From: Bacteroidales bacterium | Lineage (GTDB): Bacteria > Bacteroidota > Bacteroidia > Bacteroidales > Prolixibacteraceae | Direction of reading: 5' to 3' | Assembly (NCBI GenBank): GCA_012719495.1 | Contig: JAAYAG010000077.1 | Span: forward strand, 1-64,000 | Length of the DNA stretch: 64,000 bases | Part shown: in pieces, positions 22,582 through 27,497 of the stretch | How the letters are laid out: every line of letters begins with the position of its first letter | How positions within the stretch are numbered: position 1 is the stretch's first letter | Position numbers and translations under genes: made by a program | Notes under the pieces: model-generated | The model's input: only the letters and a program-made list of their open reading frames with translations | Database searches by the model: none | Told to the model about the DNA's origin: nothing

Positions 22582-23853
22582 CTATTTAAACAAAAGCGGA
22601 GCCAATTCATAAAGGCTGCGGCGCCATGTCTGGAATTCGTGTGCAGTGTTTTCAGAAATATAGCCCACAGCATTATAGCCAGCACCTTTAAGTGTTTCTG
22701 CTGCTTTCTTAATTGCATCAGGACCTTCTTTGCTACCACAGCTAAGGAAAATAAATTTGATTTTAGATGTATCTTTATATTTTTCTTTTAATTCATCAGG
22801 ATTGTAAGTTCCACCACTTAAAAGAGCAAAACGTGAAAATACTTCAGGTCTGTTAAGTGTAATAGTGTGAGTTTCCATACCACCCATCGAAAGACCGGCC
22901 ATAGCGCGATGATCCTGATCATTGTATGTACGGAAGTTTGCATCAATGTAAGGAATTAATTCATCAACAAGAACAGTTTCGAAGCCGTTGTTCATCATTG
23001 CAGCCATTCCACCAAAGCCACGAGAAGGTCTTTCGCCACCGGGGGCAGCAGCAGGTGCTTGTCCGGGAGTAGCAGCAGGAGCAGCAGCAGGAGCTTGTCC
23101 GGGAGCAGCAGCACCGGGAGCACCACCAGGACGTCTCATGCCCATACCACCAGGTCTGAAACCTTCATTGGTCATACCATAAGTCATTACAATAATGAAA
23201 GGTTTGATTTTACCTTCGGCAATCAAGTTGTCCATTATTAAGTTAGCACGACCTTGATTGCTCCATGCAGTTTCGTCTTCGCCCCAGCCATGTTGTAGAT
23301 AAAGCACGGGGTAACGGGTTTTTGTGTCATTTTGATAGCCAGGAGGCGTATAAACAAAAGCCCTGCGCGATGTATTGGTGCTTTTCGATGGGAAAAGTAC
23401 CTGTTGAACAAGTCCATGAGGAACGTCTTTCAGTGCATAAAAATCTTGGTCGTGGGCAGGTATTTCAATGCCGCTTTCCCAACGGGTTGAGCCATAATAA
23501 TTCAACGCACCCGGATCGTTAAAAACACCACCATCGATGGTAAGGTGATAATAATGGAAACCTTCGTCCATAGGACCTGCAGTTGTTCCCATCCATGAAC
23601 CGTCTTCAGCTTTGGCAAGCGGAGTTCCACCACGGGTTCCGCCTAAACCTAAACTAACCACAACACTTTGTGCCTGCGGCGCATCAACTTTAAAACGGGC
23701 ATACCCTTGCGAGTTTACCATCGGGTACTCTTTCCCCGGTTGATTTAGGGATGAAGGTTTGAAATCTTCTTTGATTTCGGCTGGAGTGGTTTGTGCAAAG
23801 CACAATGTACCAAACATTACCAGCACCATTAAAATTATTGTATACTTTTTCAT
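22582..23853 (-). CDS. Secreted CE1-type esterase, paralogue 7, with Pro/Ala-rich insert
   Basis: 423 residues, the longest stand-alone member. The E-set domain diverges from that of its neighbours ([19 protein letters not shown]). The CE1 domain has S322 in [10 protein letters not shown], glutamate at the acid position (CGSKEGPD) and H in [13 protein letters not shown]. An insert of about 50 residues, rich in proline, alanine and glycine ([16 protein letters not shown]), precedes the segment [12 protein letters not shown]. At DNA level the insert contains an imperfect direct repeat with a 36-base period. The catalytic half resembles paralogue 10 closely. Confidence 0.85.
23045..23112. repeat. 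Imperfect 36-bp-period repeat inside an esterase gene
   Basis: Two copies, at 23045-23076 and 23081-23112, share GCAGCAGCAGG and GCTTGTCCGGGAG with few changes. They encode a 12-residue unit, APAAAPxxxPGQ. Such a repeat can expand or shrink by slippage, changing linker length. Confidence 0.7.
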
Positions 23854-23868
23854 CTGTTTTATTTCTTA

Positions 23869-25092
23869 TTATTTGAATAAAAGTGGGGCAAATTCATTAA
23901 GACTTCTTCTCCATGAATGCCATTCATGTGCAGTTTCGGGAGAAACATAAGAAACTCCTTTAATACCAACTTTTTCCCATTCTTTTGCTGCATCACCAAT
24001 CCGTGCTGCACCACCTTCTTTACCGCCGAAGCTCATGAATACAAGTTTAACATTCTTCTTGAATGACTCGATGTCTTGAATTTCATTTGGAGTAAATGTT
24101 CCACTACTGAACATACCAACATGTGAAAATAGATTTGGATTGGCAATTACAATTGAGCGGGTTTGCATTCCACCCATTGAAAGTCCAGCCATGGCGCGAT
24201 TTTTTTGATTTGCAATAACCCGGTAATTCGATTCAACAAATGGGATCAGGTCATCGATAAGGATTCTTTCAAATTGGCCGGCCATGTTAAATCCACCAGG
24301 TCCACCGGGTCCACCAAAACCTCTTCTTGGAGCACCTTCAGGTCCACCGGCTGGTGGTGCAACTTGTCCGGGAGCACCTGCTGGTCTTTCGCCTGCTGCT
24401 GGCCTCGGAGGACGAGGACCACCAAAATTAACCGCGCTGTTCTCCATAACAATTATAAAAGGAACAGCTTTACCTTCGGCAATAAGGTTGTCCATAATTA
24501 ACGCTGCAAATCCCTGGCTTCCCCAACCGGTTTCATTTTCACCCATACCATGTTGCAGGTAAAGAACCGGGTATTGATCATTTCCTTTTTCGTACCCTGG
24601 AGGTGTGTATATATAAACCCTACGGTTACTATTTGATGTTTTTGAATAGTAAAAGGTTTCGCGAAGATTTCCGTGTGGAACATTTTTCAACGCAAAGAAG
24701 TCCTGATCGTTAGAAGGCACTTCTATACCACTACCCCAACGACTAGCACCATAATAATAAAGACTTCCCGGATCAGGAACTGAAGCGCCGTCGATATTCA
24801 GCTGATAATAGTGAAAACCTACGTCCTGAGGTTTCGATTCACCGGTCCATACCCCATTGGCATCTTTAACCATGTTGTATTTTACCCCGCCAATGTCGAG
24901 CTGAACCATGTTGGCATCGGGTGCCGATATTTGAGCTCGCACACAACCTTCGGAGTTCACCTGCGGAAATTCTTTTCCTTCCTGGTTTGCTCTCGAAGGT
25001 TTAAAATCTTCTTTTGCTTTAGTTTCCTGGGCAAAAGCGTTTTGACCAATAAATAAAGCAAATATCGATGCAAATAATAATTTGTTTTTCAT
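23869..25092 (-). CDS. Secreted CE1-type esterase, paralogue 8, with Pro/Gly-rich insert
   Basis: Signal peptide ending at AFAQ, E-set domain nearly the same as in paralogue 9, CE1 domain with S305 in [10 protein letters not shown], glutamate in FGGKEGGA at the acid position and H in ETAHEWHSWRRSL. A proline/glycine-rich insert of about 45 residues (PRPPRPAAGERPAGAPGQ, then GGPGGPGGF) lies at the same place as in paralogues 5 and 7 but with its own sequence. Gaps of 15 and 20 bases to its neighbours place it in the operon. Confidence 0.85.
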   Translation of the reverse strand: MKNKLLFASIFALFIGQNAFAQETKAKEDFKPSRANQEGKEFPQVNSEGCVRAQISAPDANMVQLDIGGVKYNMVKDANGVWTGESKPQDVGFHYYQLNIDGASVPDPGSLYYYGASRWGSGIEVPSNDQDFFALKNVPHGNLRETFYYSKTSNSNRRVYIYTPPGYEKGNDQYPVLYLQHGMGENETGWGSQGFAALIMDNLIAEGKAVPFIIVMENSAVNFGGPRPPRPAAGERPAGAPGQVAPPAGGPEGAPRRGFGGPGGPGGFNMAGQFERILIDDLIPFVESNYRVIANQKNRAMAGLSMGGMQTRSIVIANPNLFSHVGMFSSGTFTPNEIQDIESFKKNVKLVFMSFGGKEGGAARIGDAAKEWEKVGIKGVSYVSPETAHEWHSWRRSLNEFAPLLFK

Positions 25093-25112
25093 TACAATAA
25101 AATTTCAGTTGA

Positions 25113-26267: not shown

Positions 26268-26304
26268 GTGTTTATTTTTATGTTTTAATTGCCACATGTC
26301 ATTT

Positions 26305-26355
26305 GCATGATTTGAAAAACCTTCAAACTGGCTGATGATGTTCCTGAAATCATGC
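26305..26355. repeat. Inverted repeat in the gap between two esterase genes
   Basis: GCATGATTT (26305-26313) pairs with AAATCATGC (26347-26355) across 33 bases. No T-tract follows on the coding strand, so an mRNA-processing or stability element is more likely than a terminator. Confidence 0.4.
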
Positions 26356-26390
26356 TCATTTCATAATCAATAAATCAAGGATCGAATCAA

Positions 26391-27497
26391 CTACTTAAAC
26401 AGAAGCTGAGCAAATTGGTGCAAACTGCGGCGCCATGTATGAAATTCGTGGGCAGTGCCTTCCGAAACATACGAAACTGCATTAATCCCTGCTTTCTTTA
26501 GTGCCTCGGTCGATTGTTTCACGCCATCAGGCCGTTCCTTGCTTCCGCAGCTTTGGAAAATAAGTTTAACAGTGCTTTTGTCTTTTACCTCTTCGGGGTT
26601 GAACATTGCACCGCTGAACAAGCCAATGTATGAAAACACTTCGGGTCGATTTGTTGTAATCGATTTTGTTTCCATAGAGCCCATTGAAAGCCCTGCCATT
26701 GCACGGTTTTTCTGATCAGCCAATGTACGGAAATTGCTGTCAACATAAGGGATCAGTTCGTCAACCAAAACGGTTTGAAACGGCTTGATATCGAAATTAC
26801 GCAAGCCACCAAACGAAATGTCATTGGTCATTCCGTAAGTCATAACAATGATAAATGGTTTTGCTTTTCCTTCAGCAATGAGGTTGTCCATAATAAGGTT
26901 GGCACGTCCTTGATTTGGCCATGAGTATTCGTTTTCGCAATAGCCGTGTTGCAAGTACAGCACTGGATATCGTTTCGACGTTTCTTTTTCATACCCCGGA
27001 GGAGTGTAGATAAATGCCCTGCGCGAAGTGTTGGTGCTTTTCGATGGGAAAAGAACTTCATGCACATGTCCGTGTGGTACATCTTTTACAGCAAACATAT
27101 CCTGATCGTTAGATGGGATTTCGATGCCGCTACCCCAACGACAAGCGCCAAAGAAAAACAAGCTACCTGGATCGGGTACTGAAGCACCGTCGATGTTCAG
27201 CTGATAGTAGTGAAAACCCACGTCCTGTGGTGCAGACTCACCGGTCCACAGCCCATTCGCATCTTTCACCATGTCGTATTTTACAGCACCAATGTCAAGC
27301 TGCACTCTTTTTGCTTCAGGAGCTAAAATCTGTGTCCGTACCCTACCTTCAGAGTTTACCTGAGGAAATTGGCTACCCGGCTGATTAACAGGCGTTGGTT
27401 TAAAATCTTCAACAATCGAAGATGCTGTTTGTGCCCAACTATAAGAAACTCCCATAGCCAGGCTTAAAAGGGCAATTACGATTCTTTTTTTATTCAT
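26391..27497 (-). CDS. Secreted CE1-type esterase, paralogue 10, mosaic
   Basis: First gene of the eight-paralogue run. The E-set half follows paralogues 6, 8 and 9 ([18 protein letters not shown]). The catalytic half follows paralogue 7: both carry [24 protein letters not shown] and NRPEVFS. Nucleophile S271 lies in [10 protein letters not shown], the acid region reads CGSKERPD (glutamate) and the histidine lies in [13 protein letters not shown]. The mixture suggests recombination between tandem copies. The promoter of the run should lie in the 680 bases upstream, but no clear -7 motif was found. Confidence 0.85.

Follow-up and report, generated by a model that had tools for sequence, protein, structure and literature searches.

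An old CBM48-CE1 mosaic in a tandem esterase array of a Prolixibacteraceae genome

The window analysed here, 64,000 nucleotides of a Bacteroidales genome (Prolixibacteraceae), carries eight tandem esterases on the minus strand (g3-g10; 17775-27497), each composed of an N-terminal E-set (CBM48) domain and a CE1 domain. An earlier note on this DNA proposed that its paralogue 10 (g10) combines the E-set half of paralogues 6, 8 and 9 (g6, g8 and g9) with the catalytic half of paralogue 7 (g7), and attributed this to recombination or gene conversion between the tandem copies. Is g10 a genuine mosaic, and was it made from the genes that now adjoin it? Our analysis shows that the mosaic is real and old, and that the adjoining genes did not produce it: g10 was inherited or imported. 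In the following, the A type denotes a g6/g8/g9-type CBM48 joined to a g7-type CE1, as in g10, and the B type denotes the combination found in g7.

The esterase array and its surroundings

All eight proteins passed the 22-bit cut-off for CE1 (Pfam Esterase, PF00756). The Pfam search reported CBM_48 for none of them; the N-terminal CBM48/E-set was assigned because g10 aligns over its full length with CBM48-CE1 chains of known structure, and g7 aligns with them through its N-domain. The array genes and the parts of g10 are listed in Table 1. The long open reading frame of g4 (19031-20374) overlaps the 3' end of g5 by 89 bases, and g4 likely starts at an internal 11-residue motif of this frame.

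Table 1. Array genes and the domains of g10, with the evidence used for each.
Feature	Coordinates	Strand	Evidence
g10, A-type mosaic: signal peptide, g6/g8/g9-type CBM48/E-set, g7-type CE1	26391..27497	-	identities, sliding comparison, relatives
g10 CBM48/E-set, residues 30-139	27081..27410	-	domain identities, comparison across relatives
g10 clearly exchanged CBM48 core, residues ~48-122	~27134-27356	-	comparison across relatives
g10 switch region, residues 122-~150 (GSGIEIP...VPHG...LFPS)	27048..27134	-	sliding comparison and relatives
g10 CE1; triad Ser271, Glu321, His350 by alignment	26394..27079	-	Pfam match, alignment
g9, likely start at second Met; E-set recently exchanged with g8, tract ~25815-26175	25113..26297	-	DNA identity
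g8; E-set recently exchanged with g9, tract ~24645-25000	23869..25092	-	DNA identity
g7, B type: CE1 lineage of g10, other CBM48; usual slot before g6	22582..23853	-	identities, synteny
g6; CBM48 type as in g8/g9/g10, CE1 distant	21409..22566	-	identities, ML distances
g5; CBM48-CE1 paralogue, reference for undisturbed divergence	20199..21392	-	ML distances
g4; CBM48-CE1 paralogue, outgroup in trees	19031..20287	-	identities, ML distances
g3; most distant array member; syntenic in relatives	17775..18962	-	identities, gene order

SusC/SusD-like proteins, a CE1-GH10 protein and further esterases surround the array, as would fit a xylan utilisation locus. The CE1-GH10 fusion protein (31606-33528) adjoins the array. 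Just upstream of the esterases, 28372-30390 encodes a DUF362 protein that ends in a Por secretion sorting tail, an unexpected neighbour for xylan genes. No esterase-gene relics were found in the gap at 27498-28371. Two more tandem esterases, distantly related to the array, lie on the plus strand at 4062-6314; the CBM48 match of the first is weak and falls short of the Pfam cut-off. The GC content of g10 (0.446) is unremarkable within the array and gives no base-composition sign of import.

Low-complexity insertions rich in Pro, Gly and Ala follow the IVM motif in a CE1 loop and are long in g7 and g8 and short in g5. Many B-type relatives are shorter proteins that lack the long insertion of g7. 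In related structures, it has been suggested that a flexible loop influences substrate choice.

A mosaic shared across Bacteroidota

The coordinates of the g10 reading frame in the earlier note are correct, and the two halves of the protein behave as it described. In the N-terminal half, the amino-acid identity of g10 is 77.5% to g6, 77.5% to g8 and 76.6% to g9, against 50.5% to g7, which itself has a different E-set half. In the CE1 half, g7 is the closest (69.4%), ahead of g8 (55.7%), g9 (55.4%) and g6 (48.9%). The 18-residue motif that had been quoted for the E-set is exact in g8, g9 and g10, but g6 differs, ending in PDPGT; the motifs of the CE1 half, including NRPEVFS, occur only in g7 and g10 among the array genes. 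Although g6 lies outside the range 22582-27497, it belongs to the comparison. Shared sites were clustered between g10 and both g8 and g6 in the N-terminal half, and between g10 and g7 in the CE1 half (permutation p = 0.0005, the lowest value that 2000 shuffles allow).

A sliding comparison of the window genes placed the switch in g10 at residues ~115-150. When 24 A-type, 19 B-type and 40 g6/g8/g9 sequences were compared, it fell between residues 122 and ~150, in the interdomain linker. Because this segment is largely conserved across all types, it gives no finer position for the breakpoint. The exchanged tract has a clear 3' edge; its 5' edge lies within the signal peptide, which evolves fast.

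Full-length relatives of g10, with 70-86% identity over the whole protein, were found in Prolixibacteraceae, Marinilabiliaceae, Salegentibacter and Balneolaceae, and g7-type genes with 79-87% identity over the first ~235 residues were found in many genomes. The g7-type CE1 lineage comprised 69 genes, 39 with a g10-type E-set (A) and 30 with a g7-type E-set (B), counting the window's own g10 and g7. In the E-set tree, the A type forms one group inside the g6/g8/g9 cluster and the B type one group outside it. The two combinations are equally old. The A combination recurs at ~39 loci that span families and classes, so the genes now next to g10 were not the source of the mosaic. Of the mechanism put forward in the earlier note, exchange between array paralogues has support, but the making of g10 from its present neighbours does not.

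Gene order in the relatives is g9-[A or B]-g6-(g5)-(g4)-g3, with either A or B, never both, in the slot. The order in the window is A-g9-g8-B-g6-g5-g4-g3. Both types were found together only in the window genome and in one other, where they lie on separate contigs (G024); an A-type gene before g9, as in the window, occurs in two Marinilabilia arrays. The closest relative of g10 is the A-type protein of Breznakibacter xylanolyticus (85.6%), a member of another family, whereas the remaining array genes are mostly closest to genes of their own family. This difference makes an import of the A type into the window genome plausible.

CBM48 exchange and its probable direction

In the absence of exchange, both domains of a gene pair are expected to diverge in step, and we used the ratio of E-set to CE1 ML distances as the statistic. 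Undisturbed pairs had ratios of ~0.8-1.2 (B-g9 0.90, B-g8 0.99, B-g5 0.93, A-g5 1.06, g9-g5 1.12). Six pairs were far too low (A-g9 0.35, A-g8 0.35, A-g6 0.27, g9-g8 0.35, g9-g6 0.24, g8-g6 0.23), the A-B ratio was far too high (2.24), and that of B-g6 was intermediate (0.57). Percent identities agreed with these ratios. The mosaicism is thus wider than the single odd gene that the earlier note implied: the CBM48s of g6, g8, g9 and the A type are all too alike for their CE1s.

One such exchange is fresh. Within the window genome, g8 and g9 share 84.2% DNA identity in the E-set and 58.2% in CE1, and their E-sets are closer to each other than to any orthologue found (77.5 and 78.1% at the nucleotide level). 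Identity is raised over the tracts given in Table 1 and low on either side. Paralogues that are more alike within the tract than orthologues are seen for g8 and g9, and not for g10 with any neighbour. The g8/g9 case supports CBM48 gene conversion as an ongoing process. Marinilabilia provides a second local exchange: there, g9 and g6 have E-sets of unusual similarity (81-85% DNA identity, against 55-58% in CE1; L103 1980-4568 and L107 11096-13872).

The B type, with E-set/CE1 ratios of 0.85-0.99 against g9, g8, g5 and g4, behaves as if vertically inherited. Given this, the low ratios of the A type with g6, g8 and g9 and its high ratio with the B type are both explained only if the A type is the recipient, and from these domain distances we infer that the B type gave rise to the A type. 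Rooting the A/B group in CE1 was dropped as a guide to direction, as the trees contradict each other, with A inside B in one and B inside A in others. Synonymous distances, tried for dating g10 against its neighbours, were saturated or nearly so and usable for g8/g9 only.

Separate domain trees, whose congruence the earlier note named as the refuting outcome, were incongruent overall, as expected for gene conversion or domain shuffling between tandem paralogues. The CE1 data rejected the N-domain grouping of the A type with g6/g8/g9 (AU p = 0.0002), and the N-domain rejected the full CE1 topology (AU p = 0.007). The N-domain alone did not reject A and B as sisters (AU p = 0.18-0.21), because it offers only 114 columns and its A/g6/g8/g9 part is star-like.

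We consider it probable that g10 descends from an old chimeric gene in which a B-type CBM48 was replaced by one of g6/g8/g9 type, giving the A type, which later spread. In this history, the slot flanked by g9 and g6 would have held a B-type esterase that acquired the CBM48 of a g6/g8/g9-type neighbour. Gene conversion or unequal crossover would be the probable means, the breakpoints falling in conserved stretches on either side of the CBM48. The resulting A type would have displaced the B type in many genomes and, through both descent and transfer, come to be distributed across Bacteroidota. The window genome would have kept its B-type gene (g7) in the slot, with the A-type gene (g10) heading the array and possibly derived from a Marinilabiliaceae-like donor. 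This kind of replacement may also have homogenised the CBM48s of g6, g8 and g9, and would be continuing in g8/g9 here.

Three other histories were weighed. The adjacency of the genes, their tandem arrangement and common motifs, and the recent g8/g9 conversion, which shows the process operating here, might suggest that g10 was formed recently in the window genome by recombination among g6-g9. This has hardly any probability: the same full-length combination exists in dozens of other genomes, the g10-type E-set forms one group across genera, g10 and its neighbours differ at synonymous sites to the point of saturation or close to it, and the closest relative of g10 belongs to another family. A recent local origin is already refuted by these orthologues. 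The exchange might instead have run the other way, with an original A type and a B type that received a foreign CBM48; the CE1 tree leaves direction unsettled and the slot is occupied by either type. We regard this as unlikely, since the CBM48 of the B type is as far from those of g9, g8, g5 and g4 as its CE1 is, which fits vertical descent, and since the A type would still need homogenising with g6/g8/g9, so that two events are needed.

That the N-domain tree with A and B as sisters passes the AU test would also allow a single A/B history for both domains, with no exchange between the g7 and g10 types and a CBM48 that evolved fast in the B type after the split. Such a history requires a stem of 0.62 substitutions per site on the B side against 0.03 on the A side, although the CBM48 is otherwise conserved within the B type (83.5%) and the B type is no farther from the outgroups than the A type. 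In simulations under A and B as sisters, the observed outgroup similarity, a statistic chosen after the data were seen, was reached in 1 of 300 replicates (0/300 with g5 only, 56/300 with g4 only). We judge this history quite improbable. Replacement of a B-type CBM48 thus remains our preferred origin of the A type. A broader reading, which we hold tentatively and at slightly less than even chances, is that the CBM48 is a shared cassette copied repeatedly among the tandem paralogues. Four catalytic lineages would then carry one common sugar-facing domain through concerted evolution while their CE1s diverge, and the B type would be the one core lineage that stayed out.

Predicted consequences and known CBM48-CE1 enzymes

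The array proteins are CBM48-CE1 esterases of an ordinary kind in a probable xylan utilisation locus, and the processes at work are known ones in a known enzyme family. Equivalents of Ser271, His350 and Glu321 were present in the alignment in 39/39 A-type and 30/30 B-type proteins. In DmCE1B of Dysgonomonas mossii, the CBM48 packs over the active-site groove, with His360, Tyr361 and Glu390 against Glu639, Glu452 and Arg644 (PMC8040265); the g10 equivalents (H96, Y97, E126, E351, E188 and R356) are invariant in every A- and B-type protein. Residues of the DmCE1B face proposed to meet xylan include Asp333, Ser363 and Arg384 (PMC8040265). The Arg384 equivalent is kept in both types. The equivalents of Asp333 and Ser363, D68 and Q99, are fixed in the A type and nearly fixed in g6/g8/g9; in the B type they are never D and never Q, respectively. 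Judged from these alignments, the exchange alters two residues on the predicted xylan-facing sheet and keeps the interdomain contacts. It may change how the xylan chain is contacted over the active-site groove, with domain packing and the feruloyl-esterase-type CE1 kept.

The best solved match to g10 is wtsFae1A (PDB 6RZO), a CBM48-CE1 feruloyl esterase from another organism (Holck et al. 2019, cited in PMC8040265). It aligns over residues 28-367 with 532 bits and has the A-type combination, with the FHYYQL E-set, the LDIG face and the LFPS CE1. Bacint_01039 of Bacteroides intestinalis (PDB 6NE9) is a CBM48-CE1 protein with the CBM48 type of g10 (FHYYQLNVDGAAVPDPG), but its CE1 half has g6-like motifs, making it another partner of the shared CBM48. 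The C-terminal part of DmCE1B (PDB 7B5V/7B6B), whose interdomain contacts were used for mapping g10, has the same CBM48-linker-CE1 architecture; its CBM48 and CE1 are more distant, it is embedded in a CE1-CBM48-CE1 fusion, and its CBM48 has no measured glycan binding. Surface proteins of Porphyromonas gingivalis, another member of Bacteroidales, are reported to gain diversity through domain rearrangement and allelic exchange (PMC5266723), though these are other proteins in another selective setting. In open-access full text, no account of gene conversion in such loci that concerns CBM48-CE1 enzymes was found.

Trees built from whole CBM48-CE1 proteins combine two histories. One CBM48 type occurs with four CE1 lineages, and the A and B types form a natural experiment in which one CE1 lineage carries two CBM48s, each conserved across genera. 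Because the isolated CBM48 modules of D. mossii failed to bind any glycan tested (PMC8040265), a comparison of the A and B types would directly test the role of the debated CBM48 in feruloyl esterases.
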